Positions 21,542 through 43,939 of a stretch of DNA of 46,539 nt are shown here, piece by piece. The stretch's first letter is position 1, and every line of letters starts with the position of its first letter. Made by a program: the position numbers and the translations under genes. This stretch comes from a virus: positions 1 through 46,539 of IMG/VR virus record IMGVR_UViG_3300032116_000359; one strand, given 5' to 3'. A model generated the notes under the pieces. The model worked only from the letters and a program-made list of their open reading frames with translations. It was not told the DNA's origin and ran no database searches.

Positions 21542-24370
21542 TTAATCACCATCTAAATCAAAACTGGTACTAGAACCTCCTACAGGATTACCATACTTAT
21601 CTGTTCTCTGAGTTTCTCTACCCGATCTAATTGCCAACATAGCTAAGTCAGATGCTCTCTCTTTTTTCTTTTCATCTGACAAATCTGTTCCAGCTAAAGA
21701 TTCTAAGTAAGTGTTATAGTATGAGTTAAAAGCAGATCCTAATGCAGCTAAATCAGATCCTGTAGAGTTACTACTACCATATCCAAGACCAGCAAATCCT
21801 GCGGTATTTGGTTTAAAGATTTGTCTACCCGTCCAAGGATCTTTAAAGAAATGTGTGTTTGTAGCATTAATATCTCCAAACTTCTGTCTGTTATTCCAAG
21901 CTCTATCAAATGCTTTACTAGTATCCTTAAGCATTCCTCTAATAGCATTGTCATACTGCTGTAAAGCTACAGCATTGCCTGCCCAAAGTTCTTTCATTGC
22001 TGCAGCACGTTGAGCTCTGATAGCATCTCTTCTTCTAACTTCTTGAGACTCATAAGCATTACCTCTGTTAATATTATTACCAACAACGTTAGCAATATCT
22101 TGAACAGCTCCTTCAGCCACCTGACCAGCTGCATTAGATAAGTTAGCAGATAACCCTTGTGGTGCAGTGTATGCTCCAAGAATATTAGCCTGAGTGTTAA
22201 AGAGACCTTGTCTAGAAGCCACTCTTGCTCTAGGATCTTCTAAATATAAAGGTGCCTTTTCATACTCTGGAGTTGGAACAAAAGGCATGATTAATCTAGG
22301 AAACACTGCACTAGATGCAAACATATTGTAAGCATCAGGAGCTGTATATCCAAATGGAGTTTCACTAGACCCTCTATTACAGAAAGCCATTGCTTCTTCT
22401 GCTGTTCTAAATCCACCAGCTCCTGCAGAAACACTCACAGGTTTAGCAATATACTTTCCTTTATTAGCAGGATCAGGAGCACATACGTATCTAGTTTCTG
22501 TATTAACACCAGGCCCAGGAGGTTTTCCAGGAGGCATTTGAATATTTGGAGGAGCAGGTTGCTTGGGTTTACCAGCAAGTTTAATTAATTGACCTATATC
22601 TGTATTACCTCTCCAATCATCAGCTTTAGTAATTCTTCTTGTAGGTTCTTTTGAATATCCACTACCCTTAGGTTCAGGCACACCTTTATACTCAATAGCA
22701 AATAGAGATCCATATTTTTTAGAAAAATCAGGATCAGAAGAAAGAAGATCATACATATCAAGAAAAGCCTGCTGACTTCTTCTAATATCTTGTCCTGATT
22801 GAGGAGTCAGTCCTAACTTCTTTGCAATCTTATTGTAGTAAGTATTAGCACCCCCCTTGTCCCATTCTTCAGTAATAAGCTCAGGAGTACCAGCAAGTTT
22901 TTCATTAATAACATATTTTTGACGCTGGCCTTCTAAAAGACTATTGATATATTGCTCTTCTGTAACAGAATCACTTTTACCTCTTTCAGATTTATATTTT
23001 TGATAAAGAGCCGTTCTTAAGTCAGCTGTTTCAGGGGCGGTGAATAAAGTTTTAAATTCTTCAAAGTCTTTGCTCCAAGTTGCTTCACCTGCTTTTTGAA
23101 ATTTAGGAAGAGGACCCCCACCCTTAGCTTTGCCCATAAGTTTCTGTTGAGCAAACATTGGAAGCTGACCGCCCTTCATTGACTCTTGAACAGCAGCAAG
23201 CTTTGCAAGCATACCTTCATTTTTGTCAAGCATCATCTGAGCAGTAGACTTCTGTAAAGGATCACTATTTATATCCTTAATAATAGCATTGTATTCATTA
23301 AGCTTAAACTTCTTAGAAATTTTAGCCGGTGTAACACCCTTCTTCCATAAAGCTTTTGGAACATTAAACATTTCAAGGATTGCAGGATCTTTAATTTTAA
23401 GAGCCTTTGTATCACTAAACATAAATGAAGGTGTCTTAGGATCAGCAGATTCAATCTGTTCTGCTGTTAAAAGAAGACCACCATCTGTATGTCGTTTACC
23501 CTCAAGCTCAAAGAAACTGTTGCTTCCATCAGCCTCAGGTCTAATAAATGTTTCACCACCTTCTGCTTCAATTACAGGCTCAGCTGCATCGTCACTCTTA
23601 TCTTCAGACATAGTATTTGTATAATGATCAGCAGTAGTTTTACTCATATCTGTATAAAACTTCTTCCAACCAAGATCTAAACTATATCCAGATTGACCTC
23701 CGTATTTCATTTCTTGAGGCCCTCCTACAATACGAATCTTAATTTTGTCTGTATCTTTTGCCATAAGGTTTCCTCCAAATTGTGTTATAAACATCCCTTC
23801 ATTTATGGGAGTTAACATGTTAGGAAATTGAACACCTGTATTAGTTTCTACATTGCCTAAATTACGACCCTGCTCAACTACAGGATTAAAATTAGCTTCT
23901 CTAAATGCTCTATCAAACTCTCTTTTAACTCTTCTGTTTTCTTTAAACTTGGCTGCAGCACTAAGTGCATTAGCAGCACCCATTAAACTAGCATTTAATT
24001 TAAATACATCTTGTGTCCATTTGGGAGCTTTGCTATCTCCGGCAGTATTAGCAGCAGGATTAACACCTGTACCAGGTCCTGTCTTTGGAGTTCCTCCAGA
24101 AAGTTTTGCATTTGTATTAAACTTCTGAGGCTCCACTTGTTCATTTGGAACACATTTCTGATCTCCAACACTCCATGTCTCTTTTCCTATTACACAGCCA
24201 TATAAGTCATACTGCTCAGCAGCAGGTGCTGCTGATTGTTGAACTGTATTAGACCCTTTATAGTTAATATCAGGGACACACTGTTGTAACACAGGATCAA
24301 AAATTTCTCCATAAGGACATTCACCTGCAAATTGCATTTGAGGAAGCCCTGTAATTTTAATCTTAGGCAT
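21542..24370 (-). CDS. probable virion-internal protein with repeated LPxxQ and Cys motifs (942 aa)
   Basis: Not assignable to a named function. The N-terminus carries LPQMQFAG (residues 9-16), CPYGEIF...CVP (18-33) and a second Cys pair ending CVP (58-75). Further LPxxQ-like copies are LPMFAQ (about 403) and LPKFQKAG (about 421). A central segment, EAEGGETFIRP to HTDGGLLL (268-300), then FMFSD, has the look of a conserved phage module; I only recall it as widespread in uncharacterised phage proteins. Residues 540-600 contain DPDFSKKYGSLFAIEYKG and GNTDIGQLIKLAG. A Pro-rich linker is at 603-622. The C-terminal third is Asn/Ala-rich and helical. It lies 2 bases after the 249-aa gene, so it is tightly coupled. 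A packaged structural or cargo protein is the best guess. Confidence 0.7.
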   Translation of the reverse strand: MPKIKITGLPQMQFAGECPYGEIFDPVLQQCVPDINYKGSNTVQQSAAPAAEQYDLYGCVIGKETWSVGDQKCVPNEQVEPQKFNTNAKLSGGTPKTGPGTGVNPAANTAGDSKAPKWTQDVFKLNASLMGAANALSAAAKFKENRRVKREFDRAFREANFNPVVEQGRNLGNVETNTGVQFPNMLTPINEGMFITQFGGNLMAKDTDKIKIRIVGGPQEMKYGGQSGYSLDLGWKKFYTDMSKTTADHYTNTMSEDKSDDAAEPVIEAEGGETFIRPEADGSNSFFELEGKRHTDGGLLLTAEQIESADPKTPSFMFSDTKALKIKDPAILEMFNVPKALWKKGVTPAKISKKFKLNEYNAIIKDINSDPLQKSTAQMMLDKNEGMLAKLAAVQESMKGGQLPMFAQQKLMGKAKGGGPLPKFQKAGEATWSKDFEEFKTLFTAPETADLRTALYQKYKSERGKSDSVTEEQYINSLLEGQRQKYVINEKLAGTPELITEEWDKGGANTYYNKIAKKLGLTPQSGQDIRRSQQAFLDMYDLLSSDPDFSKKYGSLFAIEYKGVPEPKGSGYSKEPTRRITKADDWRGNTDIGQLIKLAGKPKQPAPPNIQMPPGKPPGPGVNTETRYVCAPDPANKGKYIAKPVSVSAGAGGFRTAEEAMAFCNRGSSETPFGYTAPDAYNMFASSAVFPRLIMPFVPTPEYEKAPLYLEDPRARVASRQGLFNTQANILGAYTAPQGLSANLSNAAGQVAEGAVQDIANVVGNNINRGNAYESQEVRRRDAIRAQRAAAMKELWAGNAVALQQYDNAIRGMLKDTSKAFDRAWNNRQKFGDINATNTHFFKDPWTGRQIFKPNTAGFAGLGYGSSNSTGSDLAALGSAFNSYYNTYLESLAGTDLSDEKKKERASDLAMLAIRSGRETQRTDKYGNPVGGSSTSFDLDGD

Positions 24371-24372
24371 GA

Positions 24373-25122
24373 TTAAAGGTATTGAATTTTATAACCTTTT
24401 TTCTTTAACTTTTTAATTTCTTCTTCACTCATTTCATACTCACCACCCACTTTCAAATCTCCACCTACCATTTTTTTACTAGAAGACATAATCTTCTGTT
24501 GTACAAATTCAGGGAGAGCTCTAAAACCAGGGTTGTCAAAAGAACCGCCAGCTTCAAACATTACTGCTGGATTGTATGCAGAGTCTGCATAAAGAGGTAC
24601 ATAACCACCACTAGCATATGATACTCCAGCTGAATAGGTAGAGTTATTTTTAGTGGGTCCACCATAAGCCATTTTACCTCCACAACCATAACAAGGCTTT
24701 CCACCCATTCTCATCATAGGTTGTTGTCCTTGTTGAGGCTGAGCCATCATCTGTTGCATTTGTTCTGCAACAGCCTGAATCAACTGTGTTCCTTGATCCT
24801 GAGGGATACCAGCTTCTACAAGTTGCTGTAAGATTTCTTGAGGATCTGCTCCTTGTTGTAAAGCTTGAGCAATAAACTGAATAATCTGTTCTTCTTGACC
24901 TCCACCACCTTGCTGTGGAGCAGGTTGCTGCATCATTTGACCAGCCATCTGCATAGTAGGAATAGAGGTATCCCCACCATACATATAAGCACCCCCATAC
25001 ATAGCCATCTCCAACATTTCTGCATCAGGGTGAGCTTTAAAGAAAGATTGTTTAGTAGGGTACTTTTTATAAAAGTCTTTTTCAGTTTTAACCCCTGCAA
25101 TTTTTAAGAATTGTTTTACCAT
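24373..25122 (-). CDS. uncharacterised Gln/Gly/Met-rich protein (249 aa), LPxxQ-motif family member
   Basis: The N-terminal 35 residues (FLKIAGVKTEKDFYKKYPTK) form a small basic helical module that resembles short modules I recall from other phage proteins. Then come Gly/Met repeats (MYGGAYMYGG), IPTMQMAGQM (a copy of the LPxxQ-type motif), a Gln-rich helical segment (residues 75-125), and a Cys-rich patch MGGKPCYGCGGKMAYGG that could bind a metal ion. The C-terminus is EIKKLKKKGYKIQYL. There are no membrane segments or enzyme signatures. It lies 18 bases after the 575-aa gene and 2 bases before the 942-aa gene. It shares its linear motif with its three neighbours, which suggests a common location in the particle. 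Function unknown. Confidence 0.65.
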   Translation of the reverse strand: MVKQFLKIAGVKTEKDFYKKYPTKQSFFKAHPDAEMLEMAMYGGAYMYGGDTSIPTMQMAGQMMQQPAPQQGGGGQEEQIIQFIAQALQQGADPQEILQQLVEAGIPQDQGTQLIQAVAEQMQQMMAQPQQGQQPMMRMGGKPCYGCGGKMAYGGPTKNNSTYSAGVSYASGGYVPLYADSAYNPAVMFEAGGSFDNPGFRALPEFVQQKIMSSSKKMVGGDLKVGGEYEMSEEEIKKLKKKGYKIQYL

Positions 25123-25140
25123 TTTATTTTTTATTAAAGA

Positions 25141-26868
25141 TTATTTGTATTCATTTAACCAACCACCTCTTTGCATTGCTCTTTTACCATAAGAACCACT
25201 TATTTTTAAATTACCCTGTTTTCTCATAGGAATATTTAAGCCAGCCTCTATATTATAATTTAATGCTTTTTGAGGAGGTAATAGTCTTTCCATCCTACTC
25301 ATTTCAGAAAGTTCTGGATCTCCAAAGAATTTATCTACAGAAGCATTTAATGTAAGTCTAGGAGCTCTCTCTGCATCACGTTTACCAAATCTAAAATCAG
25401 AATCTAAATTTGCTGCCCAGCTTTGTCCAGGAACATAATTGCCAGAAAGATTTAATGAACCTCTTTTACGAAAAACTTCTGGAAGAGAAAATCTCATATC
25501 GTGAGTTTTTCTTCCAAATGGATCTGTAGAGTAGTTATACCCTAAACTAAACTTAGGATAGCTAAGTTCAATACCAGTTCTTGTATTTCCTCTTGTAGGA
25601 GCTACCTCAGGACCAAACATATCCATAGGTACACAATCTCCTACTTCTTCCAAAAATACAAAACCTTCTGGACATTGTCCTCCACCTTGCATTTGGGGAA
25701 GGTTTGGAGAGTATTCATTTACAACGTCTCCTCCATCTTGATACTGGTCACCATAAGTCATATAATCTGATACAGCATCTGCATAGTGATCCATTACAGC
25801 AAGCTTAGAACTAATCCAAGGTTCTAAATCTGAATTAGGCTTAATAAACTTACGTAGCTTTCCAAGCTTATCCATTACAGCACTCATCTGTTGCAAAGCC
25901 ATTCCTCCGTCAGCTTCACCACCTTTTTGCATCATACCTGCCATGCTCCCCATACTTCCAGCACCGGGTGCTATTAGATTAAGAAGTTGTGGATTATCCT
26001 TTATAGTTTCCTTTGCTTTATTAACTCTATTCATCATACCAGGAAGTAACAACATTCCAAATGCAGCTTTAGGAAGATTATTATTAGATTCACCACCATT
26101 TTTTAAAAATCTATTTCCTTGTTTTGCAAACTGACCCACCTCTACAGCATCACCAGAGTTTGGGTCTATTATATAATTTTTACCATCAGACCATGTTTGA
26201 ATATCAGCTCCAGGAGGAGGTATAAATCCTTTTAAAGAACCAGAAGCAGTTCTTCTAGAACTAGGTATACCTTCACGATTCATAAGTCCCATATCTATTC
26301 TACTAATCTCCCTACCTGACTCATCAACAATTCTTTCAATTAAAGGAACAAACTTCTGCTTAGATGTAAAAGATCCAAACCAACCATCTTCAGCAGAAAG
26401 ATTATCAAACTGATCTTTTCTTTTTATACCTCTTTCATCTTTAAACTTTTGATTATTTTTCTGAAACTCTAAAAACTCTCTCTGAGCTCTTGGAACAATA
26501 TCATAGTTTATGACTGTATCTGGATACATTTGTCTATATTCATCAAATAAACCTCTTCCTAGGTTCTTTGATCTATTGTCTAATGTTCTACTTCCAGATA
26601 AACCTTTCTGAGATGCAAAGTCTATAAGACGGTTCCACTCCTCCATTTCTCTTGGAGTTAAGCCAGGAGTTTCTCCAGGAAAACCTGTCTCAGCTTTATA
26701 TAAAGGCATTTCCATACCATACTCAGCTTTACGCCAAGTACCACCTTTACCTTTATACCATTTAGCAGCCCAGCCGTTTGCATATGCAGATGGGTATACA
26801 TCAAATTTTTGTCTAGCTAAAGACTTAGCTTTAGACCACAGTGAGGGATTGTTAGGTTTGTTTGCCAT
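25141..26868 (-). CDS. internal virion protein with YPSAYANGW domain and C-terminal beta-barrel-like region (575 aa)
   Basis: Residues 10-48 contain KFDVYPSAYANGWAAKWYKG, a basic module found in many phage and giant-virus proteins (I believe of the DUF5872 type). The middle is Gly/Met-rich with MQKGGEADGG (313-322), NNNLPKAAFG (262-271) and the composite LPQMQGGG + CPEG...CVP (390-414), which matches the start of the 942-aa protein. Residues 430-565 alternate polar and apolar residues in short strands (GIELSYPKFSLGYNYS, GSLNLSGNYV, LTLNASVDKFF, YNIEAGLNIP, NLKISGSYG), as in an outer-membrane-type beta-barrel. The last residues are GGWLNEYK, repeated inside the neighbouring 1262-aa protein. 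There is no signal peptide. Role inferred: packaged protein that might act at the host envelope; unproven. Confidence 0.7.
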   Translation of the reverse strand: MANKPNNPSLWSKAKSLARQKFDVYPSAYANGWAAKWYKGKGGTWRKAEYGMEMPLYKAETGFPGETPGLTPREMEEWNRLIDFASQKGLSGSRTLDNRSKNLGRGLFDEYRQMYPDTVINYDIVPRAQREFLEFQKNNQKFKDERGIKRKDQFDNLSAEDGWFGSFTSKQKFVPLIERIVDESGREISRIDMGLMNREGIPSSRRTASGSLKGFIPPPGADIQTWSDGKNYIIDPNSGDAVEVGQFAKQGNRFLKNGGESNNNLPKAAFGMLLLPGMMNRVNKAKETIKDNPQLLNLIAPGAGSMGSMAGMMQKGGEADGGMALQQMSAVMDKLGKLRKFIKPNSDLEPWISSKLAVMDHYADAVSDYMTYGDQYQDGGDVVNEYSPNLPQMQGGGQCPEGFVFLEEVGDCVPMDMFGPEVAPTRGNTRTGIELSYPKFSLGYNYSTDPFGRKTHDMRFSLPEVFRKRGSLNLSGNYVPGQSWAANLDSDFRFGKRDAERAPRLTLNASVDKFFGDPELSEMSRMERLLPPQKALNYNIEAGLNIPMRKQGNLKISGSYGKRAMQRGGWLNEYK

Positions 26869-26873
26869 ACAAA

Positions 26874-29800
26874 TTATTTTCTTCTATTGTGAGAATAAGG
26901 TATTCTTTGACTACTTGTTTTAGATGATTTAAATTTAGATCTTTCTTCTGAGCTTAACTCTGATGAGGTTTTAGGTGTTTTAGAAGATACTCTTTTAGAA
27001 GGTCTACAAGCAGGATATGCTCTACTCTCTCCTTCTTGTCTACCACATGGTTTACCACTTTTAATATCCACCCACTTTTCTGCAAACCATCTGTCCAATC
27101 CACCGTGTTGTCCACCTTGTTTCTTTTTAGGAATAAACTTTGGATTATTTGGATTAAATGGTTGGTAATCATTGGTATTCCAAATACGACCATACCAAGT
27201 ATCATAATAATTACTACTAGGAACTCCTGGAGCTGGATTATTAATATTTCTATAATACCAATCTCTTCCTTTATTCATCAGTATTCTTCTCTCGTTTTCT
27301 GGGAGCTTTCCTATTGTAGCATTATATTCTTGATCAAATGAATATGCTGCATTTTTTCTACCAGGCCACTTTCCTTCTGTATCTAGTTTTGAAGGATCAT
27401 ACTTTTTATAATATTCCTGTAAAGCATATGCTCTAGGATCTTTTAGTATTTTACTATTAGCCTGATCCCAACCAGCATTAAAGATAAAATCCATAGCTTC
27501 GCCAGCTTCCATTGCACTAGCGTTAGGTAGTATCTTTTTTACTTCTGGATATATATTTCCCATTAGCATATTCATATACTTAGGGTCACTATAGTATGGT
27601 AAAGGAGTTCCACCTGGACCACCTCTTAGCTGTTCATATTGTAATATTTTATTAGCTTGATGTCTAACACTATCAGCAGAGGATTGAATACCAACTTGTT
27701 GAGTAGTTCCAGCAAATTGCATTTTAGGAACATGTACAGGTTTAGGTTTAGGATTTGTAAGCATCCAACTAGAATTATACGGACCACCTAGCTTAGCTTT
27801 ATAATCATCTAACCAATTATCTGTTTTAAATGTAAGATGATATTCATCTATATAATCAGCATCTTGAAAGGTTATAGAACTTTTATCATAAGGTTGTAAG
27901 ATAGCCTGTTCTCCTGTATTAGCTTTAGCTAAAATAGTTTCACCAGTAGGATTATATACAGTGTCTCCAGTTATTCTCCAATTAGATCCTTTAGGGGGTC
28001 TACCATCTTTGTATCCATTATTATTTACTAACGGACCACCTTGTTTATTTTGCTTTATTGGATTTGTTATATAATTAAGAAATGTATTTATTCTTTCCTG
28101 TGTTGTTATTGGTAAGGTAACAGCTTTACTACGGGTATCTATTAACTCATTAATAGGTTTTTTAAGTTCATTTACTACATAAGGAGTTCTTCTTTCAGAT
28201 TCTAATCCATATAAGGCAAGCTTTTCAGCATCAGAAAGACCAGAAACATATTTTGCAAATTCTTCATCAGATAACTTAGAAAGTTCATCTGTATATCCAC
28301 CTTCTAAATCATAAAATTTATTACCACCTCTTTCTGTATATGGACCTAAGTCATCTACCCCTTTAGTTGAACGAAGTCTTGGTTTAAGATTCCAATTCTG
28401 CTTTATAATTGTTGCAGGGTTTTGACCAATTCTATTTCCTTCAGTAAAAGCTCTAGCAACACCAGATCCAGGAAGTGTGTTTAAATCAATTACAGATACT
28501 CCTCCTGTTTCTGGATTTCTTAAAAAGTTATATCCTTGCCAATCAGGATAGATTCCTTGTTTATTTAGTTGTCTAAGTTTAAGAGCCATTTCAGCTGCAG
28601 CAGTTCTGGAAATTGGTTCAGCAGAACGTTGAGCAAGACCAAAAGTGCTACCCTGCATTCTAGGAGTTAATGTAACATTTTTATTTGCACCAAGTTCCTG
28701 AAGATGAAAAGGAAGTCCAATTTGAGGATCTCTTATAGATTTTCCTGCTTCAAACAAACTACGTGTTGCTCCTTCAAAAGGTTCTTTTGTTGAGTATTTT
28801 AAAACAACATCAGGACTATATTTTAACGGAGATACAAATTCAGAATACGAACCAGCCCCCATCACATCATCAACATTAAATAATTTTCCTAAACCTGTAT
28901 TTTGTAATTTATTACCTATTAGTAATTTTTGTTTAGCTTGATAGTATTGATTATATATTTCAGGAGTATCTCTTTCTGCTTGTGACAAAGCTCTCCAATC
29001 ATCATCAAGTTTATTAAGTTTTTTTACAGCAGACTTAGATACTTGATCACTAAATTTAGATATCCCTGAAAAGTCTATTTTTGTAGGATCACTATAGTCT
29101 TTTGAATATCCTCTTAACCAATTTGGTTTTTCCCCAACCATTGGAATTTTTCCAGAAGCGGGATTTATTTTATAGATGTTTTTTAGAGGAGTTCGTGTTG
29201 TAATACCTGTTGATCCAGGCAGTAAGCTTACTGAACCTACACCAGCAACATCTCCTACTAATCCTAAAGTAGCTAAAGCATTTGATCCAAACCCATCACC
29301 AAAACCATAAGGATTTTGACCAAGTGCTTGCTGAGTAAGTCTTGATGCAGACATAGCAGGTGCTGTAATAGGATTTATATTTATAAATGTCTCAGCACCA
29401 ATTGTCCCTGCACCAGGATTATAACCACCAGGAGTTAATGCTCCAAAGCTTTGAGCCAAAGCAGAATTTTGTATAGCTTGCTGTTTTCTATAATTAGCTG
29501 CAGCTTCTTCACGAAGTCTAACAGCTTCACGACTCATATCCTGAGCTTTAACAGAAGGACCTTCTTTAGTTTTTTTAGGAAGGTTGGAAACAGCTTGTTT
29601 ATATTCTTTTGACTGTTGATACGGTTGTACTTTTATATTTCGATTAGCTTGTTTAGCACCAGTGGATGTCCAATTATATAAATTTTGTCTGTTTCTTTCA
29701 CGTTGATCAATTGCTAAAAAATTTAATAATTCAGATGATGGAAAACCTGTTTGAGCTTTAGGAAGTTCATATTCATTCAACCATCCTCCATCAGCTTTTT

Positions 29801-30662
29801 TCTTTATGGGTGAAAGAGTCCTTTTAATTTCCATTTTTAAAGGAGAACGATCTCTTTCTAAAGGAACAATATTTCCGTCTACATTTTTATAATACACCCT
29901 ATCATAAATTTCATAGGGTCTACCAAAGTTTACAGGAAGATCTACACCGTAATCTTGTAAAGGAGCTATATCCCACAAGTCATAATAAGAAAGATATTTA
30001 CCTTTTTCATCTTCTCCCAAAGATACCTTGTAATTACCCATTACATTATTCAATCTATCAATGAAGGTGCCTTTTCTACGACGATCATATAATCTAAATT
30101 GTCTATCGTTACCTAGACTTGTTAATTCCTCTTTACCGTCAACAACCTTAACCATCTTTAATAGTTGACTTTGGCTATTGGGGTCATTTATTTTATAATA
30201 AACAGCATATGGATTTTCTGATTCAGATGGAGTATATTGTGAAATTGAGAAAGTATTAAATCTTTGAGGATAGCCTTGATACATATTAAAGGCATCCATT
30301 CTATTCATTTTAGCACGATGCCATTTATTTGTTTCTTTTGCATAACCAGTTTTGACATCTTCTTCAAACTCTTGTCTATTTGGATCTTGCAGTCCTAAAA
30401 CAGCAGCAACAGTTCTAATAAAAGGATTACGATATGATACAGGATATAAGTTTTTATTAATGTTACGCTGAAGAATATTTTTATCTTTTTCAGATCCTTG
30501 AAATCTACCCTGTTGAGCAATTCCAGCTAAAAGTCCAAATGCAGGAAGAGGACTAGGAACACGACGTTTCTTCTTTGGATCAGGTTCAATTTCTGAGCCA
30601 ACGTCAAACTTCGGAAGCTTGGACATGTAGTAGTTCTGTAATATGGAATCTCTCCTTTTCAT
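26874..30662 (-). CDS. multidomain internal virion protein: kinase-like region, lysozyme-like region, DUF5872-like tail (1262 aa)
   Basis: Modules in order: basic N-terminus with KLPKF; structured region to about 285; GGWLNEYELPKAQTG (292-306); Ala/Gly-rich linker; residues 598-735 reading like a protein-kinase fold (GAGSYSEFV loop, VVLKYS with K622, D707-W-Q-G-Y-N712, VID726LN); KQGGPLV and NWLDDYKAKLGG (949-960); VPKMQFAG (979-986); residues 990-1140 resembling a T4-type lysozyme (YEQLRGG with E1010, YYSDP, DFIFNAGWDQ, WYYRNIN); and a basic tail with GGLDRWFAEKWVDI (1187-1200), CG...YPAC and a Ser/Lys/Arg-rich end. It overlaps the muzzle-like gene's stop by one base (TAATG). It is probably a packaged protein that could cut peptidoglycan during entry. 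Domain calls are by eye and need structure prediction; gene existence is certain. Confidence 0.72.
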   Translation of the reverse strand: MKRRDSILQNYYMSKLPKFDVGSEIEPDPKKKRRVPSPLPAFGLLAGIAQQGRFQGSEKDKNILQRNINKNLYPVSYRNPFIRTVAAVLGLQDPNRQEFEEDVKTGYAKETNKWHRAKMNRMDAFNMYQGYPQRFNTFSISQYTPSESENPYAVYYKINDPNSQSQLLKMVKVVDGKEELTSLGNDRQFRLYDRRRKGTFIDRLNNVMGNYKVSLGEDEKGKYLSYYDLWDIAPLQDYGVDLPVNFGRPYEIYDRVYYKNVDGNIVPLERDRSPLKMEIKRTLSPIKKKADGGWLNEYELPKAQTGFPSSELLNFLAIDQRERNRQNLYNWTSTGAKQANRNIKVQPYQQSKEYKQAVSNLPKKTKEGPSVKAQDMSREAVRLREEAAANYRKQQAIQNSALAQSFGALTPGGYNPGAGTIGAETFININPITAPAMSASRLTQQALGQNPYGFGDGFGSNALATLGLVGDVAGVGSVSLLPGSTGITTRTPLKNIYKINPASGKIPMVGEKPNWLRGYSKDYSDPTKIDFSGISKFSDQVSKSAVKKLNKLDDDWRALSQAERDTPEIYNQYYQAKQKLLIGNKLQNTGLGKLFNVDDVMGAGSYSEFVSPLKYSPDVVLKYSTKEPFEGATRSLFEAGKSIRDPQIGLPFHLQELGANKNVTLTPRMQGSTFGLAQRSAEPISRTAAAEMALKLRQLNKQGIYPDWQGYNFLRNPETGGVSVIDLNTLPGSGVARAFTEGNRIGQNPATIIKQNWNLKPRLRSTKGVDDLGPYTERGGNKFYDLEGGYTDELSKLSDEEFAKYVSGLSDAEKLALYGLESERRTPYVVNELKKPINELIDTRSKAVTLPITTQERINTFLNYITNPIKQNKQGGPLVNNNGYKDGRPPKGSNWRITGDTVYNPTGETILAKANTGEQAILQPYDKSSITFQDADYIDEYHLTFKTDNWLDDYKAKLGGPYNSSWMLTNPKPKPVHVPKMQFAGTTQQVGIQSSADSVRHQANKILQYEQLRGGPGGTPLPYYSDPKYMNMLMGNIYPEVKKILPNASAMEAGEAMDFIFNAGWDQANSKILKDPRAYALQEYYKKYDPSKLDTEGKWPGRKNAAYSFDQEYNATIGKLPENERRILMNKGRDWYYRNINNPAPGVPSSNYYDTWYGRIWNTNDYQPFNPNNPKFIPKKKQGGQHGGLDRWFAEKWVDIKSGKPCGRQEGESRAYPACRPSKRVSSKTPKTSSELSSEERSKFKSSKTSSQRIPYSHNRRK

Positions 30663-33600
30663 TATCTGTAAGAAGGCTGAATCTTTTTATTAGACAGTTT
30701 AAATAAAAACTTAGTACTTCCACTAACATTCTTTCTCATCCAAACCCTGTTTACATTATGACGAAACTTTTTACGTTGTAAAGCAGCTTTAGAATAACTA
30801 ACAGCAGCAGGGTTTACAGTGTATTGATAACCATTAGGTTGTGTTAAAACTAGAGGAATCTGAGCTCCACTAAATTCACCACGATCTTTTGTAATATCCC
30901 AGAACTGGTTAAATCTATACTTCTGTTCTTCTTTAGAGAAATTAATATCTATTGATGTTGGGTTTATCCTAGGATATGTAAGCATATCTAAAGGATTAGA
31001 CTTAGAAGGTAATACAAGATTTAGTATTCCAGAAATCTGCTCTGAGTTATAAACCATTGCCTCATCAAAGTTTGCATCTAAAATATGAAATCTATCACGG
31101 CAGTCATTAAAGTATTTATAACCCTCTAGTAAGTATTCTACACTTCTAATAGTGTTTACTTGTTGTCCTGTAACAGAATCAATTTCAACTTCCCAAGGAT
31201 AGTTCTGATTATAGTAGTTACAGAACAGATCACATCTTACATTGTGCTTCCAAATACTATTACCGTTTACACTCATAAAGTGAGTTCTACCAGGTAATAA
31301 GAAAGTTGGAATCCAGTCGTGATAGCTAATCCAAGTGTTAGACTTAGTATCAAAACTTATTGTCCAAGATGCAGATTCAAAGTAGTTAGTATTTGTTAAT
31401 GCTACAGGGGTAGATCCTAAAAAGAAATTACCGGATGCATCAAATGTTAAATTGCTAACCTTTGGCTTATAGTCTCTTTTACAAATATAAACTATTTCAT
31501 TTGTATTATCATATATCATATGTACACCCACCCCTTTTACAGGGTTATCGTACAAAGGATAATTAGGATATACTTTAAGAAGTTCAGATGGAAGATACTT
31601 AGCAAACCACCATCTCAAACCAAGAGATGATATATCTTTTAACCCACCCGCATATTGAAAAATCTTACCTTGGTTTTGACTAACCCAAAATACCCCTTTA
31701 GAAGTATTAATTACAGCATATCTGCTTTGACTAGAAGCATACTCATAAGGATCATCTGCGTTTATAACAGACTGTAATTGGTTAGGTCCACTAAATAAAG
31801 CACCGTCCCCAATTGTAACTTTCGTTCCTGTAGCATCTAGCTTTAACTCTTCTACTCCCAAGAATTGAAGAGGGGCCTGTGATTGCATTAAGAATAATGC
31901 ACCTGTTTTATTTACAGGTTTAATTGCTGTAACAGGAGTTAGAAACTCATTATAGTTGTTTGCCAAGAATACTCTCCAGTAATCCTTCTTGCCCTCATCT
32001 TGCTGAGGCAGAGAATAGATTACACGGGTTGGTCTATATGTATAACAAGTAGCTGCTACGTTTGGATCATAGTCTCTTGGTAGTAAGTTACCCCAAGTTA
32101 TCTGGCTGTTTACGAGTTTAGATACACTAAGTGAGTAGTCGTATTTATAAAAATTACCATCCTTAACATAGTCACTTCTAAATAGTAAACTTAAGTTTGT
32201 ATATCTATATGGATCATAGTGCTGCTTAGACCCAATCTCCTCCCAATCTCTATAAGCTAGGTTTACTTCTGACTCTACAAAAAAGTCTCTCACCCCAGAA
32301 TTAAATAAATAAAAGTATCCTCTGTTTACATAAAAAATACTTCCGTTTTGGAATCTGTCCAGATTTCTATAATCGTTTGGAGACTGAGCTAAAATTCCAA
32401 TATACTTTTTATTGTTAATCCAATATCTGGGATAAGGAATATTTGCATACAATGTGTAGTCAAATTGAACATCATCTGGTTCTCCTTGTAAAAATGTATT
32501 AAAGAAAACCATTGAGTTCTTCTCAGTATGTCTATTGATATAAATATCACCTCCAAATGTTACAGAAGATGTAAGTTGTAAACCTTTTACTCCTGGAGTA
32601 GGTTCAACACAATTAGATATTGGAATCTGCTTGATGGACTCAAGTTGTCCATACTGACTACTGATTGGAATCTTTATAGCTCCATAATAAGAAGAAATAT
32701 TTGTAGTAATAGATTGACCAGGAACACCCCCAACATCACCAAGTGTAACTCGGCTATTATCAACACTCACTGGATCAGGAAGTGTTGCACTAGTTTTTAC
32801 ACAGACAAATCTATTTCTGTTAGTGTTATTAACTTGAAATGCTCCTGTAAATTGTTGTACATTTCCTTTTACATAACTAGCATCCGTAATTTCTCTTCTT
32901 CTATTTCCAATAGTTGCAATAGCTCCATTAGTTTTATAGAAACCATGAGAGTTATACTGAGCAGCATACTGTCTAAAAGGAATAAGAGCAAATACGGTAT
33001 CTAACAGTTGTTGTTTTAAAATTCTTGGTTGAATAAATATACCATAATATAAAGCAACACTTTGGTTTAAAATTATTGAAGCTGCTGCAGCAATTGTACC
33101 AACAGTACTTGTTCCAAAAACATTTGCCTCAGCTACCACTGAACCAGTAGTCAAACTAACAGGTGGTAAATCTTTACTAGCTCCTGCTTTTATATCAACT
33201 GTTGCCCCTGCAAACAATGCTGTTGTTAAAATAGTAGTCCAACCAATAATAAATATATCAAACCCAGTATCTACCCCAGCTGTAATTTGTCTAAATCTAG
33301 GATGCTTATATGGAGTCTCAAAAAATCCATCAGTTACTCCTGTAAGTTCTTGATATACCTTAAGTTCATTAGCATTTAAAAATGGAGTAGAAAATGTTGT
33401 CTCAGGACTATGAAAAGAGAATATATCTTTTCTATAACCTGTTAAAGGTGTTGGTGAAAAATTACTAACACTACCTACACCATTTTCTCCATTTTGCTCT
33501 TGAGAAGTTAGATACTTATCTGGTCTTAAATCATTATAAGGATAGTTTTGATAGAGCCCCGTAATTCCAGGTTGTGAGGGATTTACATATTCCCTCATAT

Positions 33601-35215
33601 TATTAACGAGTCCCTTAGCAACAACAGATTTAGCTCCTTCTCTAGATCCTCTTAAAATTTCATATCCTACAACAGAAGTGATAGGATTTCCATTAAGATC
33701 TAGAGGATGTGTAATTCCCTCAAACTGTACACCTAATAAAACAATCTTATCACCGTTATTTCTAAAATGACTTACTATATTATTAACAGTGACATCAGGC
33801 ATTTTATGGTGACGAATAGGTTGACCACAAAGGTTCCCCCAAATATCAGGACGTGTAGCAGAATATAACTCTGTACTTTCCCAGAATCCCATTCTACCTT
33901 TAGCAATAACAACTCCTCCATCAGAAAGAGTTGATGTAGTTAAAGAATCTAAAATACCAGTATTCTGTACTTGCCAAAGTTGTCTGGTGATACCACTAGC
34001 TGTTTCAAAAGCATCTCCTCCTGTCACATTAGCTCTTTCTCCAGGAAGAGGGGCTCTACCAGGAATATGATAAGACTCAGACTTTTCTCCTGTATTATAA
34101 ATCCATCTAATAAAAAAGGCATACTGCTCATCTCTAAGATAACCTGTATTGTTACCACCTTTTACATAATAATCAGCTGGATACTCTACAACCACCCACT
34201 TAGCTTGGATGTTATTTGCTTGAGGCTGATAGTTAAACTTAAACTTACTGTATACACCTGTACGTAGTAAATAGTTATTTACCATGTACATTGCGTCAGA
34301 CTTTTCAATAGGTTCTGTTCTAAGAACTATTTGACTAACTGAAACAGAAGGATACTCAGGGTCCCATCTATCTATATAAATTGTACCCTGGGTTGTGGGA
34401 TAAAAGCCAATTCTTTTACCGGTAGTTTGTCCATTAATATTGCTAAGAATAACAAGCTCAAATTCTTCAAAACTTGTATCAATATTATTTATTGTAAGAA
34501 TCAAAGATGAACTTACGTTCTCATTTTGAAACAGTCCCTGTACTTCAGAGAGTCCAATATAGTCGGTTACCTTTACTTGATTTATAGTGTAAGCTATACA
34601 AGCTTGGTATGATCCATTAGGAAGAGTGCCTGCAATATTTCCCTTAGCAATTGTAATACAAGGGTGTGTAACTAAAGGAGCAATTCTAATCTTTTCACAA
34701 TCTAATTGGTTTGTGTAATTAAATGTAACACAACCATTTATAATTGTTGTTGTAAATTTAAATGGAATATTATCAATATTTAAAACCCTTGTAGGATTCA
34801 ATCCATCATCAAAATATACCATTCTTTCACAGTCAAACTTTTCTCTGTAGGCTCCTGTGATTAGATTAGATCTTTTAAAATTTAAACAGGGTGCATTTAC
34901 CAGCTTTGTATAAGTACATGCTGACTCATCAAACAAACCAATTTCAGAATTGGTATCGTCTGTTGTAAAAATTACCCATTCATCCCCAATAGTATGAATA
35001 GCACCAATAAGTGTATAAGGAAGATTAACGCAAAACAGATTTGCTGGCTCATTACCAATAACACCAACTTGACCGTCGTGTGAGTTATTAACAGCATTTC
35101 TTGCATGGGTATATAAGCCATCTCCTACAAATGTATCATTGTAGTCCTTGACCATTCCCTTGTTAAAGCTATTAGTCACTACACCGCCACCACCTTGTTG
35201 TGAGTTTTCAGCCAT
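30662..35215 (-). CDS. muzzle / tail-stabilisation-like protein of a crAss-like phage (1517 aa)
   Basis: The protein opens with a short Gly/Gln stretch, then NSFNKGMVKDYNDTFVGDGLYTHARNA-type sequence, followed by mostly beta-strand sequence rich in Tyr, Asn and Thr. In crAss-like phages a protein of about this size and character follows the ring genes and is annotated as stabilisation or muzzle protein at the distal end of the tail. Residues about 651-678 and 705-732 are two long apolar segments (for example IIGWTTILTTALFAGATV), unusual for a tail protein and possibly membrane-active. Cys residues are frequent in the first 200 residues. The start ATG lies inside the upstream zincin gene (8-base overlap) and the stop shares one base with the next start. 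The family assignment rests on position, size and recalled similarity, not on a search. Confidence 0.6.
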   Translation of the reverse strand: MAENSQQGGGGVVTNSFNKGMVKDYNDTFVGDGLYTHARNAVNNSHDGQVGVIGNEPANLFCVNLPYTLIGAIHTIGDEWVIFTTDDTNSEIGLFDESACTYTKLVNAPCLNFKRSNLITGAYREKFDCERMVYFDDGLNPTRVLNIDNIPFKFTTTIINGCVTFNYTNQLDCEKIRIAPLVTHPCITIAKGNIAGTLPNGSYQACIAYTINQVKVTDYIGLSEVQGLFQNENVSSSLILTINNIDTSFEEFELVILSNINGQTTGKRIGFYPTTQGTIYIDRWDPEYPSVSVSQIVLRTEPIEKSDAMYMVNNYLLRTGVYSKFKFNYQPQANNIQAKWVVVEYPADYYVKGGNNTGYLRDEQYAFFIRWIYNTGEKSESYHIPGRAPLPGERANVTGGDAFETASGITRQLWQVQNTGILDSLTTSTLSDGGVVIAKGRMGFWESTELYSATRPDIWGNLCGQPIRHHKMPDVTVNNIVSHFRNNGDKIVLLGVQFEGITHPLDLNGNPITSVVGYEILRGSREGAKSVVAKGLVNNMREYVNPSQPGITGLYQNYPYNDLRPDKYLTSQEQNGENGVGSVSNFSPTPLTGYRKDIFSFHSPETTFSTPFLNANELKVYQELTGVTDGFFETPYKHPRFRQITAGVDTGFDIFIIGWTTILTTALFAGATVDIKAGASKDLPPVSLTTGSVVAEANVFGTSTVGTIAAAASIILNQSVALYYGIFIQPRILKQQLLDTVFALIPFRQYAAQYNSHGFYKTNGAIATIGNRRREITDASYVKGNVQQFTGAFQVNNTNRNRFVCVKTSATLPDPVSVDNSRVTLGDVGGVPGQSITTNISSYYGAIKIPISSQYGQLESIKQIPISNCVEPTPGVKGLQLTSSVTFGGDIYINRHTEKNSMVFFNTFLQGEPDDVQFDYTLYANIPYPRYWINNKKYIGILAQSPNDYRNLDRFQNGSIFYVNRGYFYLFNSGVRDFFVESEVNLAYRDWEEIGSKQHYDPYRYTNLSLLFRSDYVKDGNFYKYDYSLSVSKLVNSQITWGNLLPRDYDPNVAATCYTYRPTRVIYSLPQQDEGKKDYWRVFLANNYNEFLTPVTAIKPVNKTGALFLMQSQAPLQFLGVEELKLDATGTKVTIGDGALFSGPNQLQSVINADDPYEYASSQSRYAVINTSKGVFWVSQNQGKIFQYAGGLKDISSLGLRWWFAKYLPSELLKVYPNYPLYDNPVKGVGVHMIYDNTNEIVYICKRDYKPKVSNLTFDASGNFFLGSTPVALTNTNYFESASWTISFDTKSNTWISYHDWIPTFLLPGRTHFMSVNGNSIWKHNVRCDLFCNYYNQNYPWEVEIDSVTGQQVNTIRSVEYLLEGYKYFNDCRDRFHILDANFDEAMVYNSEQISGILNLVLPSKSNPLDMLTYPRINPTSIDINFSKEEQKYRFNQFWDITKDRGEFSGAQIPLVLTQPNGYQYTVNPAAVSYSKAALQRKKFRHNVNRVWMRKNVSGSTKFLFKLSNKKIQPSYR

Positions 35216-35570
35216 GTTTGATTACAAACTTCTTTTTATTCAAAAACTTATATATAACTCTTGACAAATGTCCACAAAGCCAAGCTTGAGCCTCTTCATC
35301 TTTTATACCTCTATCTTTTGTGATTCTACAAGCTGCATGAAATATCTCGTGAGCTATTGTATTATGAGTTAAATACTTTTTATCTATTACTAAATAATAT
35401 TTATCAATGTCTAGTGAAAATAAAACACCCTCTGCCGAATCTATAAATCTATAACTACTCTTGTGTTTTTTATATATCCTATTTACCTGCTCGTTTAAAC
35501 TGTCTGTAATTATACAAGTAAACTGGCAGTCATAAGTAACAAGTTTTATCGTAGTCTGTGTTTTGTACAT
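35208..35570 (-). CDS. small zincin-type metallopeptidase (120 aa)
   Basis: HEIFH at residues 74-78 is a classic HExxH zinc site, preceded by the apolar helix THNTIA and followed by DEEAQAWLCGHL (91-102), where E92 or E93 could be the third zinc ligand, as in SprT/ImmA-like minimal metallopeptidases. No signal peptide is visible. The gene overlaps its upstream neighbour by one base (TAATG) and the muzzle-like gene by eight bases, so it is made together with the tail proteins. It may process a tail or internal protein during assembly, or cut a host protein; the sequence does not tell which. It ends with TGA, which helps show that TGA is a normal stop here. Confidence 0.75.
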   Translation of the reverse strand: MYKTQTTIKLVTYDCQFTCIITDSLNEQVNRIYKKHKSSYRFIDSAEGVLFSLDIDKYYLVIDKKYLTHNTIAHEIFHAACRITKDRGIKDEEAQAWLCGHLSRVIYKFLNKKKFVIKHG

Positions 35571-36475
35571 TACCAGCCAGGGGCAGCTTTAAACATGTCA
35601 TAATATTTACTATACATTGCTTTTCTATTAGTTTTCCAAAGCTGGTACATTTCACTAAAGTTTGGAGTATTAACAATAGTTAAAGCATTGTTTCTTGCAG
35701 CTCTAAGTCTTTGCTCAATAAGCTGCATTCTCTGTGTAACATCTTCACCATTCATATATAGGTTTTCAAGCACCCTTTGCTTAATTGCATACTCATAGTA
35801 TTCATTAATCATTGGATGATCCAAAACCAATAAGTTTCCTTCATTATCTTCTAAGGCACCTTGATAGGACATATAAAGTTTGCCCTTCTCAAAGTTTGTA
35901 TAAAGGAATCCGTTCCTTATATATATCCTAAACCCAGACTCTCTCCAAGGATCTTCATAGATACCTTCTAAAGGAGCAAGTGTATTTAAGGCACTCCACT
36001 TATCTGTGCTTGTAGCAATTTCTACTTTTCTAAAAGAACGATAAACTCTTACCTCTGTTGTTCTTTTTTCTACAACCTGTACAAATATCTTTTCACCATT
36101 CTGACACTCTTGTACATATGTAAATTCACAGTTGCAGTCTGTTTGACAGCATTTTGTACAAGGATTTTCAGGATTGACAATTACATTTTCAGTGTGCCTT
36201 CCAGACATTGCTGGATAGCAGGTTTCCCAATTGATACACAGGTAAGCATAGTTGATGACATAGAAATCATCTGGAAGCTTTACTTTATAGTTCTCTACAT
36301 CTAAAATAACATTCTTAGTTCCATTAATCCTAAGTCCTAAATCATAGTTAACACGTTGAGCAACTTTGATAAGCTGTGAAGGCTCAATCAAGTTCTCATT
36401 GTTATACATGATTAAGTCAGCTCCTACCTCACTTAGAAGCTCATTAAAGGTTCTATATTTAAGTTCAGTATTCAT
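35570..36475 (-). CDS. ring / tail-tubular-like head-tail connector protein (301 aa)
   Basis: The sequence starts NTELKYRTFNELLSEVGADL, a helical N-terminus, followed by a beta region and a C-terminal helical arm with RMQLIEQRLRAARNNALT and MYQLWKTNRKAMYSKYYDMF. This helix-beta-helix plan with a long C-terminal helix fits the ring proteins (P22 gp4/T7 gp11-type tail tubular relatives) that stack below the portal in crAss-like virions. A cluster CTKCCQTDCNCEF near residues 105-117 carries five cysteines and may bind metal or form disulphides, which is unusual for this family. It lies 5 bases after the 224-aa gene and directly before the zincin and muzzle genes, the expected place. Confidence is moderate because it rests on architecture and context. 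Confidence 0.55.
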   Translation of the reverse strand: MNTELKYRTFNELLSEVGADLIMYNNENLIEPSQLIKVAQRVNYDLGLRINGTKNVILDVENYKVKLPDDFYVINYAYLCINWETCYPAMSGRHTENVIVNPENPCTKCCQTDCNCEFTYVQECQNGEKIFVQVVEKRTTEVRVYRSFRKVEIATSTDKWSALNTLAPLEGIYEDPWRESGFRIYIRNGFLYTNFEKGKLYMSYQGALEDNEGNLLVLDHPMINEYYEYAIKQRVLENLYMNGEDVTQRMQLIEQRLRAARNNALTIVNTPNFSEMYQLWKTNRKAMYSKYYDMFKAAPGW

Positions 36476-36480
36476 GGGAT

Positions 36481-37155
36481 TTAACGAGCTGTATTTTGTT
36501 TGTCACTAGTTGGATCAGTAGGAATTTGATAAAGAGCCAAAAAGTCTTTTAATACTTGTGCTTCTAACTCTCCCAATAAATAATCAGGAACATTAAAAGA
36601 CTGATCTTGTCTCACCTTACAACTATCCTCATCACAAGTAAACTCACTGATGTCATCTTCAAAAATTCCTTCAATACGTACTGCATCCCACTCTAGATTA
36701 GGAAAGTATAAGTAATCATTCAGAAACCAGTAGTACTTTGATTTATTATACTTAAAGTTCTTAGAATTTGCTATACCAAGATATGTAGTGGGAAGAGTTG
36801 GCTGAAGTCTTTCTGAACCATCTAAAGATGTAACACTACGGATAAGAGGACCGTGATAACCTTGTAAAAAAACAGGAAGCTTTTTCTCTGTACGTTTAAT
36901 AGTGCAATCAGATCTAATACCTGTACAGCATGCTTCTACTTTATCCACCTCAATAAGTTCTACAAAATCTAGTGTTTGGATTACACTAGTAAAGTTCATG
37001 AGTTTGTTTTTACCATCCTCACGTTTCATTAACCACTTAGCGTGCTTAAGAATAAATGTATATATCGTCCTATCCGTAATAAAAGAATCCTGACGGACAG
37101 CTTTTATTTGGATACGCACTCTAGAAATTACATCACCAATGCTTAGTTTAGACAT
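36481..37155 (-). CDS. ring / tail-tubular-like protein (224 aa)
   Basis: The N-terminal helical segment (SIGDVISRVRIQIKAVRQDS) leads to a beta domain with several Cys residues (ACCTGIRSDCTI, CDEDSC) and a C-terminal helical arm, VPDYLLGELEAQVLKDFLALY, ending in PTDPTSDKQNTAR. The arm and the Asp-Lys-Gln-Asn end are what I recall for crAss-like ring proteins related to P22 gp4. Together with the following 301-aa gene it would form part of the neck between portal and muzzle. It is 1 base from the end of the previous gene and 5 bases from the next start. No enzyme motifs are present. Family is inferred. Confidence 0.55.
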   Translation of the reverse strand: MSKLSIGDVISRVRIQIKAVRQDSFITDRTIYTFILKHAKWLMKREDGKNKLMNFTSVIQTLDFVELIEVDKVEACCTGIRSDCTIKRTEKKLPVFLQGYHGPLIRSVTSLDGSERLQPTLPTTYLGIANSKNFKYNKSKYYWFLNDYLYFPNLEWDAVRIEGIFEDDISEFTCDEDSCKVRQDQSFNVPDYLLGELEAQVLKDFLALYQIPTDPTSDKQNTAR

Positions 37156-37789: not shown

Positions 37790-37810
37790 CTTAAACTTTA
37801 ATAGTTTAAG
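37790..37810. repeat. 8-bp inverted repeat overlapping the metallophosphoesterase stop
   Basis: CTTAAACT (37790-37797) and AGTTTAAG (37803-37810) are exact reverse complements with a 5-base loop. The minus-strand copy contains TTAAAGTTTAA, also found in the palindrome at 21514. It covers the stop codon of the upstream gene and precedes a gap with no further gene. No U-tract follows, so it does not look like a rho-independent terminator; an operator or RNA-processing element is possible. Confidence 0.5.
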
Positions 37811-39017
37811 CAGTATAGATAAGTTCAGAAATCTTACCCTTTTCAAAGTCATGAAGTTCCATAATAGCCTGACGCTTAGACCCTACAAATTTGTTATGGT
37901 AGTGCCAATAGTCAGATTTGGAAAGACTAGGAAGATGTTTCAAAGAGAACCCGTTAAACTCATTTTCACTGATGTATTCAGTGGTCTTCTTAGAATGGAA
38001 GTGTCCTGTATAACAAGTTCTATAAATAGTTGATCCCCACTCTTTTGCAAACTCTGTAGCATAAACAAGAGGGGTATTCTTTTTAGTTACATCCCCGTGC
38101 TCAAAACCAAAGAAGTTATTACCACAAGTAATTACTTTTCTTTCAGAATACTCTACATCAAATATTACTCTTTCGTCCTTTATAGACTTAGAGATAGCAT
38201 GAGCCAAATGGTAGGAGCTTAGTCTATCGTGGTTACCTGGAAGATATATAACATGTAATTCCTGGGTAAATTGAGCTAAGTAGTTAACAGCCCAGTAGAT
38301 GGATTCAAAAGCATCCTTATATGCTTCTTGGGCTCTCATACTATTATCTACAGGAGTTCCACTGGTAGTTGTACCATTAAAGGTATCCATGTTTAAGATA
38401 TCACCACCAAAAACAAATACAATCTTAGACAAACAGTTGGAAGCATATGCTCTATGTACAAGATTAGTTACAGCACTTCTAAAGTCTTGTACCACTGTAT
38501 CATTATCCTCCTTACCAAAATGAAGATCTTGTACAGATAAAATAGCCACTACATCATTAATAAACTTGTCATTAATAATAGGTAGTGGCAAAGGCTGTGT
38601 AAGAGGATTGAAGTTCTTTATAACTTCAGCTAGAGCATTATCAGGAGTATCTTTAATCTGGGTAACCATGGCTGAAACAAGCCAACGGTCATTCTGCTGT
38701 TTATTCCAATAAGAAGATAGTCTCCATTTCTTTGTATCTATCTTAAGGATTTTAATAATGTCTTCAGGACCACAGGGTTCTGATGTAGATATACCCACAA
38801 TCTCAGCTGTACCCTTGTCTAAGTTTTCACTAAACTTGACTACAGAATCGTTAAATTTAGGAGGTGGATTTAGATAGAAATAAGAAGGATCAGGAGAATT
38901 TAAAATTTCTTGTTTTAATTCTCTGTACTTTTCTATAGGAATTCCTAACTTTGCAGAACAATATTCATCAGACTTTTTCCATCTGAGTGTCCCATATACC
39001 CTGTTAATTAGACTCAT
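37806..39017 (-). CDS. calcineurin-like metallophosphoesterase (403 aa)
   Basis: The full metallophosphoesterase motif set is present: D164-L-H166 (DLHFGK), GGD206ILN209, GN262H263D264, H307GD and GH339FH341. These residues form the two-metal site that hydrolyses phosphodiesters or phosphomonoesters. The N-terminal 155 residues form a separate helical/beta module with no match I can name (LGIPIEKYRELKQEIL, then RWLVSAMV). Many phages encode such enzymes, sometimes SbcD-like, for DNA end processing or cyclic-nucleotide cleavage; the substrate here is unknown. It is the first gene after a rho-independent terminator, preceded by about 80 bases of AT-rich DNA, so it probably starts a new transcription unit that continues into the neck and tail genes. 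The catalytic class is secure; the biological role is open. Confidence 0.85.
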   Translation of the reverse strand: MSLINRVYGTLRWKKSDEYCSAKLGIPIEKYRELKQEILNSPDPSYFYLNPPPKFNDSVVKFSENLDKGTAEIVGISTSEPCGPEDIIKILKIDTKKWRLSSYWNKQQNDRWLVSAMVTQIKDTPDNALAEVIKNFNPLTQPLPLPIINDKFINDVVAILSVQDLHFGKEDNDTVVQDFRSAVTNLVHRAYASNCLSKIVFVFGGDILNMDTFNGTTTSGTPVDNSMRAQEAYKDAFESIYWAVNYLAQFTQELHVIYLPGNHDRLSSYHLAHAISKSIKDERVIFDVEYSERKVITCGNNFFGFEHGDVTKKNTPLVYATEFAKEWGSTIYRTCYTGHFHSKKTTEYISENEFNGFSLKHLPSLSKSDYWHYHNKFVGSKRQAIMELHDFEKGKISELIYTA

Positions 39018-42455: not shown

Positions 42456-42468
42456 TTTTATAATTTTT

Positions 42469-43929: not shown

Positions 43930-43939
43930 TAACTATTGA

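Follow-up and report, generated by a model that had tools for sequence, protein, structure and literature searches.

We examined a virus fragment record of 46,539 nucleotides (IMG/VR record IMGVR_UViG_3300032116_000359, positions 1 to 46,539; hereafter the window), whose main genes all lie on the minus strand, and found that a short peptide motif, with the consensus GG-x-L-P-K-[A/Y/F/M]-Q-x-G-G, is not private to this virus and recurs in the cargo genes of a large crAss-like group. A preliminary description of the window had noted the form [LVI]P-x-[MFA]-Q-x-x-G in four consecutive proteins of 1262, 575, 249 and 942 amino acids (aa) and had suggested a packaging tag, a docking site or a cleavage signal. 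We give about even weight to a reading in which the motif serves as a binding tag of the short linear type and would dock modular cargo inside the virion, its carriers presumably being packed, held by a partner surface and later ejected. This reading is favored because a constrained, flexible peptide occurs at both protein ends and between unrelated modules, and is limited to probable cargo. Searches of the open-licence literature for crassvirus cargo, for the peptide itself and for modular internal proteins gave no description of such a motif.

All copies named in the preliminary description are present in the window. Its exact formula gave five matches, and LPKAQTG is one residue too short for it; a regular expression with one or two residues before the glycine therefore matched the four proteins six times, and the other 19 window open reading frames (ORFs) examined had no match. 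Chance or composition was rejected as the source of the motif, as in 3000 rounds of shuffling the four proteins averaged 0.048 matches and never exceeded 2. The claimed absence from the 473-, 676-, 1903- and 3116-aa proteins (the last previously given as 3113 aa) was borne out, with no match, and looser forms such as [LVI]P.[MFAL][QA] occurred in them at chance level. The four carriers are indeed otherwise dissimilar: a single BLAST match among them fell below E 0.1, and it consisted of the motif and an adjoining cysteine module (942: 9-33, meaning residues 9-33 of the 942-aa protein, against 575: 390-414; E 1e-4). At 24272-24346 and 25627-25701, two motif copies are each followed by this short module, CPxGxxxxxxxxxCVP.

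A profile trained on relatives (threshold 11.6) likewise placed all of its six window copies in the four proteins; for this scoring the rows of the window's near-identical contig (L009) were removed from training, earlier training rounds having included them. It added a copy absent from the preliminary description (GGTWRKAEYGME, 575: 45, score 18.3) and placed VPKMQFAG (1262: 978), a regular-expression match, under the threshold. Among the looser forms listed earlier, SKLPKFDVGSE (1262: 16) alone came near the threshold, at 8.9 versus 11.6. The companion form WL[ND].Y, described as accompanying the motif, occurs twice in the 1262-aa protein, where 0.018 copies were expected, and one more ends the 575-aa protein. 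GGWLSKYQSGG and GGWLQQYQNAG place the WL form in the LPKAQ register, so that WL[ND]xY (GGWL[DN]xY) can be read as a variant form of this motif.

The phage is crassvirus-like. Genes for 301-aa and 224-aa proteins, crassvirus ring proteins 1 and 2 (Pfam CrAss_Ring_1, E 1.4e-13; CrAss_Ring_2, E 3.5e-22), are followed by a 1517-aa muzzle homologue that also matches the csAssE-Sib muzzle and a structural protein of Cellulophaga phage phi4:1. The motif proteins of 1262, 575, 249 and 942 aa come next, and then motif-free proteins of 473, 676, 1903, 3116 and more than 981 aa. The window thus has the ring-muzzle-cargo order, with three modular genes separating the muzzle from the 942-aa protein, which sequence comparison identifies as a homologue of cargo protein 1 (C1). 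Its residues 266-399 aligned with the compact domain of phicrAss001 gp45 and its kin (hhalign probability 95, E 2.9e-8), and the two families aligned at whole length with probability 87. The compact-domain profile matched csAssE-Sib (1.6e-9), Fpv1 (7.3e-7), phi4:1 gp040 (E 1.4e-6) and DAC15 (5e-4). A Foldseek search with the AlphaFold model returned a phi4:1 structural protein as the best match, with further rows labelled Cargo protein 1 compact domain; the annotation of phi4:1 gp040 as a virion protein comes from tandem mass spectrometry. The C-terminal helical parts of the C1 families gave no match (hhalign probability 0.2), the whole 942-aa protein had zero matches among the phage records searched, its model had no Foldseek row at E 0.001 or better against the PDB, and its VIA-align rows covered largely its long helix.

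According to the structural report on phicrAss001, C1 (gp45) lies inside the virion and docks to the portal wing, through the compact domain (425-552), and to ring proteins, a helix (214-245) lining R1 and R2; an unassigned segment of 14 residues at the muzzle probably belongs to the N-terminal part of C1, and ejection is expected from N to C terminus (PMC10172136). Portal-wing and ring binding is known for gp45 only. The 942-aa protein shares with gp45 the compact domain, which is portal-binding in gp45, and the place behind the muzzle, and gp45 too has [FM]xxGG stretches; it differs in that LPKAQxGG was not found in gp45 and that the window carries three extra modular genes between muzzle and C1. 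Because the 942-aa protein is a C1 homologue, the window's motif genes are part of the cargo block. The proteins carrying the motif are probably packed inside particles, and the earlier label of internal proteins draws its support from this homology together with the location of C1 within the phicrAss001 virion (PMC10172136).

The distribution of the motif in relatives followed the same gene block. A muzzle search provided 52 muzzle-bearing loci, on which a profile of the form GG-x-L-P-K-[AYFM]-Q-x-G-G was iterated, at a threshold giving about 2 expected matches behind the muzzle. The regular expression matched 40 times behind the muzzle (174 ORFs, 147,381 aa), against 1.9 from shuffles, and never before it (542 ORFs, 140,851 aa; 0.8 expected). 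The iterated profile found 169 distinct copies, identical ones being taken once, in the 174 ORFs behind the muzzle and none in the 542 before it. Four near-complete relatives (571 ORFs), whose loci were kept out of training, gave 19 matches against 0.8 expected, 18 of them behind the muzzle and one elsewhere. In 39 further contigs found via C1, there were 58 matches in 97 ORFs before C1 (1.4 expected), 50 in the 39 C1 ORFs (0.2 expected) and 3 in 80 ORFs after C1; at least one match occurred in 36 of the 39 loci, and 98 of the 111 matches were sequences outside the training set. These 39 were drawn from 80 C1-found loci, 41 having been dropped, as judged from the table, because the contig was in the first set or because they were short fragments or likely duplicates. 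Seven near-duplicate loci were kept for the regular-expression and profile counts and dropped for the seam, C1 N-terminus and position counts given below. The motif is therefore conserved in homologues.

We grouped the 169 copies by the similarity of 40 residues on each side, which yielded 82 contexts without flank similarity. With one copy per context, conservation along the core was L 0.74, P 0.56, K 0.61, A/F/Y/M 0.94, Q 0.78, G 0.61 and G 0.52, no position being invariant. Because the core is kept across these contexts, recurrence of the motif reflects, on this sequence evidence, more than common descent alone. At the C1 N-terminus (24 copies), LPKAQ was kept at 0.67-0.83, with only 0.38 for the second G and no more than 0.29 at any later position. 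Codons at the core were close to general usage; the constraint therefore looks protein-level, and a DNA-level element was rejected. The common purpose suggested in the preliminary description gains support from a core that is kept in 82 contexts of dissimilar flanks and nearly confined to cargo genes. Its claim that the motif is limited to four adjacent proteins holds within the window but has to be broadened, given the WL[ND]xY variant and the related forms found in the C1 of other crassviruses.

Copies occupy N-terminal, internal and C-terminal positions. Most are internal, and 42 of 166 lie within residue 25, against 4.9 expected. Most C1 relatives open with MKxxKVRI or MKIRIT, a leader that is basic and strand-like, and the motif or a PxMxYGG form comes next; a regular expression for leader plus motif matched 12 of 33 C1 relatives (0.3 expected) and 3 of 10 C1 proteins of named crassviruses (0.1 expected). 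Another copy follows the C1 compact domain, at residue 421 in the window and at a comparable site in relatives. C-terminal copies comprise GGWLNEYK in the window and GGWLNKYK and GGWLDNYN directly before stop codons in other contigs. Structure prediction placed the modelled copies in disordered stretches: 942: 1-17, 942: 415-506 and the 65 residues before a lysozyme-like module all had a predicted local distance difference test score (pLDDT) under 50, a set that takes in both C1 copies.

Modules are exchanged around the motif. In the stretch preceding the lysozyme-like module of the 1262-aa protein, [MFYA]Qx[GA] or AQxG was present in 11 of 13 distinct contexts (17 loci, sorted by eye), and the upstream part varied. 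This module (1262: 994-1159) resembles lysozyme-superfamily hydrolases in its predicted fold: VIA-align gave Z 7.8 for SagA (3.7 Å over 132 residues), 6.9 for GH46 chitosanase, 5.7 for TtsA, 5.3 for P1 Lyz and less for T4 lysozyme. The likeness is suggestive only, because all rows fall below Z 8, and sequence searches gave no match to the lysozyme superfamily. The DUF5872 module that closes the same protein recurs elsewhere in differing settings. Few modules of the window proteins received names from PHROGs, Pfam and NCBIfam. Residues 540-800 of the 1262-aa protein (28263-29045) have, by eye, a kinase-like or aminoglycoside phosphotransferase-like look, and a viral-contig search for them gave relatives in the same virus only.

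We therefore consider a mechanism in which the consensus and its GGWL[DN]xY variant would serve as a binding tag of crassvirus-type cargo. The cargo proteins look like strings of small exchangeable modules, among them the lysozyme-like module, DUF5872 and the C1 compact domain, with the tag in flexible stretches near N-termini, between modules and at C-termini. Each copy would dock its chain on one common surface within the virion, for which the inner wall of the portal, rings or muzzle, or else the C1 scaffold, is the likeliest candidate, and a new module arriving beside a tag would be packed and ejected in line. Tentatively, and as a bolder version that we find doubtful, the repeated tag might be a general loading code, in which tag-flanked modules are registered on the portal/ring/muzzle inner wall, the order of ejection is thereby set, [FYM]xxGG forms in the C1 of gut crassviruses are dialects, and any tagged protein would be delivered.

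Several points weigh against a docking tag. No partner is known, and no motif peptide has been seen bound to anything; the resolved gp45 parts (214-245 and 425-552) miss the N-terminus and the stretch after the compact domain (PMC10172136). The presence of the window proteins in virions is something we infer. With the profile, the exact motif was not found in the searched stretches of phicrAss001, phi14:2, phi4:1, Fpv1 and csAssE-Sib, and it is therefore not needed for C1 function as such; three profile matches in those phages fell in double-stranded DNA-binding, portal and transposase genes, none of them convincing. Leptolyngbya phage Lbo-JY46, whose recorded host is Leptolyngbya boryana, has one N-terminal copy (KIRIIGLPKAQIG). 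A looser pattern, [FYM]x(1-2)GGx[LIVF], exceeded expectation in the C1 of 10 of 10 named phages, six at P 0.03 or less, with no occurrence in the two gp46-type proteins examined, and phi4:1 gp040 has four [FMY]xxGG against 0.62 expected; the choice of the [FYM]xxGG pattern followed inspection of the sequences, and for several C1 the pattern is weak. PKMQxGG is also present in phage proteins that are unrelated, most often in tape measure proteins, beside unrelated enzymes. A blind DNA scan of a viral collection for PKMQxGG returned 114 stretches, in six of which the motif protein was a C1 homologue; the sequence lay in an ORF of 60 aa or more in 103 of the 114 (88 with a stricter ORF list). After removal of near-identical sequences and cutting to 900 residues, 76 proteins remained, and 10 of the 12 PHROG families matched by at least two of them were tape measure proteins. 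In tape measure proteins (L139, L131, L113, L092, L130 and others) the sequence is often PKMQxGG[YFI]VxKGG (29 ORFs), and one PKMQxGG copy lies in a DNA ejection protein.

The main rival, which we regard as unlikely, is that the motif is an inert linker, a Gly/Pro-rich spacer spread with modules by duplication and recombination, kept at shuffle-tolerant seams and read by no partner. Copies do cluster at seams: of 1907 BLAST alignment ends, 13.5% fell no more than 20 residues from a copy, versus 7.4% with shifted copies, and the observed share was never reached in 1000 rounds of that control. The copy before the lysozyme-like module may just travel with the module, looser MxxGG or FxxGG forms stand at many seams, and tape measure proteins contain PKMQxGG as well. 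A spacer, however, has no need to keep L, K, [AYFM] and Q over 82 flank-dissimilar contexts, to hold LPKAQ at the C1 N-terminus while the GG drifts, or to stand at both protein ends. A linker explains the place of the motif but not its constraint.

A cleavage site, cut by a virion or head protease in maturation so that modules are freed, is improbable. Such cutting has precedent in the internal proteins cut by T4 gp21 and phiKZ gp175. Copies at N-termini have the look of short propeptides that could be removed, other copies stand between modules, and a 120-aa zincin-like gene (HEIFH, 35208-35570) sits between ring protein 1 and the muzzle, with close relatives in 16 of 29 related records. Yet nothing would be released at C-terminal copies, no motif position is invariant, and motif-rich loci such as L048, L025, L030 and L044 lack an HExxH ORF within 3 kb before the muzzle. 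Searches for Peptidase_S78 (0 of 29 related records) and ClpP (0 of 18) were negative with working controls; those for S77 and C48 (0 of 18) had silent controls and are uninformative. Such proteases usually act on head proteins as well, but none of the 542 ORFs before the muzzle carries the motif. Of the functions first suggested, packaging tag and docking site fit best, and a cleavage signal fits worse.

We think it very improbable that the motif is an ejection handle with no part in sorting, a point of slip or grip that eases the passage of partly unfolded chains along the tail or collects them at the cell envelope. The phage-wide PKMQxGG matches fall most often in tape measure proteins, with one in a DNA ejection protein, both of which also pass through tails, and C1 ejection is expected to run from N to C terminus (PMC10172136). 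Direct evidence is lacking, and the PKMQxGG scan also returned enzymes unrelated to ejection. Lastly, a sortase signal, which is LPxTG near the C-terminus, was rejected, as LPKAQTG exceeds LPxTG by one residue and its position is internal.

The features are collected in Table 1. Elsewhere in the window, a 403-aa protein inside the structural block (37806-39017) matches PHROG 704 DNA repair exonuclease (E 2.4e-49), and the motif-free 1903-aa protein (12310-18021) carries AAA_33 at residues 1202-1337 (E 1.7e-14), a P-loop domain that is odd for a cargo block. Long Thr runs (TTTTTTSTTTTTTLP and similar), read off the translation, occur in three adjacent proteins at 42165-45166, and 45727-46299 has, by eye, the look of a GIY-YIG homing endonuclease. 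A host search with the C1 profile over genome contigs gave 153 pattern stretches, of which 0 were confirmed as relatives.

Table 1 Features of the window; residues are given as protein length: positions, and scores are those of the profile.
Feature	Position	Strand	Basis or remark
Ring proteins 1 and 2, two genes	35570..37155	-	Pfam CrAss_Ring_1, CrAss_Ring_2
Muzzle protein homologue	30662..35215	-	PHROG 37948, E 6.9e-59
1262-aa modular protein, first gene behind muzzle; motif copies, lysozyme-like module, DUF5872	26874..30662	-	
KLPKFDVG, weak N-terminal copy (1262: 15-22)	30597..30620	-	Score 8.9; homologues' N-terminal copies also at 15-22
WLNEY (1262: 294-298), GG before, next copy after	29769..29783	-	
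LPKAQTG (1262: 300-306)	29745..29765	-	Score 14.5
WLDDYKAKLGG (1262: 950-960)	27783..27815	-	
VPKMQFAG (1262: 978-985), immediately before lysozyme-like module	27708..27731	-	
Lysozyme-like module (1262: 994-1159)	27186..27683	-	AlphaFold model; VIA-align Z up to 7.8, suggestive only
DUF5872 module (1262: 1181-1250)	26913..27122	-	Pfam PF19197, E 2.5e-13
575-aa modular protein	25141..26868	-	
GGTWRKAEYGME (575: 42-53), variant copy behind N-terminal module	26710..26745	-	Score 18.3
LPKAAFG (575: 265-271), loose form	26056..26076	-	
LPQMQGGG (575: 390-397)	25678..25701	-	Score 14.9
GGWLNEYK, C-terminal (575: 568-575)	25144..25167	-	
249-aa Gly/Met/Gln-rich protein	24373..25122	-	
IPTMQMAG (249: 54-61)	24940..24963	-	Score 14.1
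942-aa C1 homologue	21542..24370	-	
Leader KIKITG and LPQMQFAG, N-terminal (942: 3-16)	24323..24364	-	Score 30.5; pLDDT under 50
KIRIVGGPQEMKYGGQ (942: 211-226), second leader-like copy	23693..23740	-	Starts its own gene in some relatives
C1 compact domain (942: 266-399)	23174..23575	-	hhalign vs gp45 family
LPMFAQ (942: 403-408), loose form	23147..23164	-	
LPKFQKAG (942: 421-428), right behind C1 compact domain	23087..23110	-	Score 26.0; pLDDT under 50

Among known systems, the capsid targeting sequence (CTS) of T4 is the closest analogue, and the motif may work like one rather than being one. The T4 CTS is a short N-terminal peptide common to differing internal proteins (IPI-III, Alt), thought to let T4-like phages add cargo, and IPIII needed no more than its first ten residues for incorporation into the head (PMC9026906). 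The window-type motif is likewise shared near the N-terminus by different probable internal proteins, at the excess within residue 25 noted above. The CTS, however, is N-terminal only, whereas the crassvirus-type motif is mostly internal and in some cases C-terminal; because this N-terminal-only feature fails, the motif is not itself a T4-type CTS. The CTS is also removed by gp21 after L/I-x-E, whereas the motif core has Q rather than E and we saw no sign of a matching protease, the S77 control being silent. The propeptides of phiKZ and SPN3US ejection proteins are similar in being N-terminal stretches common to packed, ejected proteins and different in that several exceed 100 residues and end at a protease site that ends in E (PMC5694885).

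The cargo protein that crassviruses must select, position and eject amounts to several megadaltons, and most phicrAss001 cargo is without resolved structure. A short, countable and mutable motif offers a direct test of cargo loading and possibly a handle on protein loading in such phages. Should it prove to be a loading tag, the cargo of hundreds of uncultured relatives could be recognized by sequence alone, the unknown modules that enter hosts could be named, and proteins of choice could be delivered with it to bacteria in laboratory strains.

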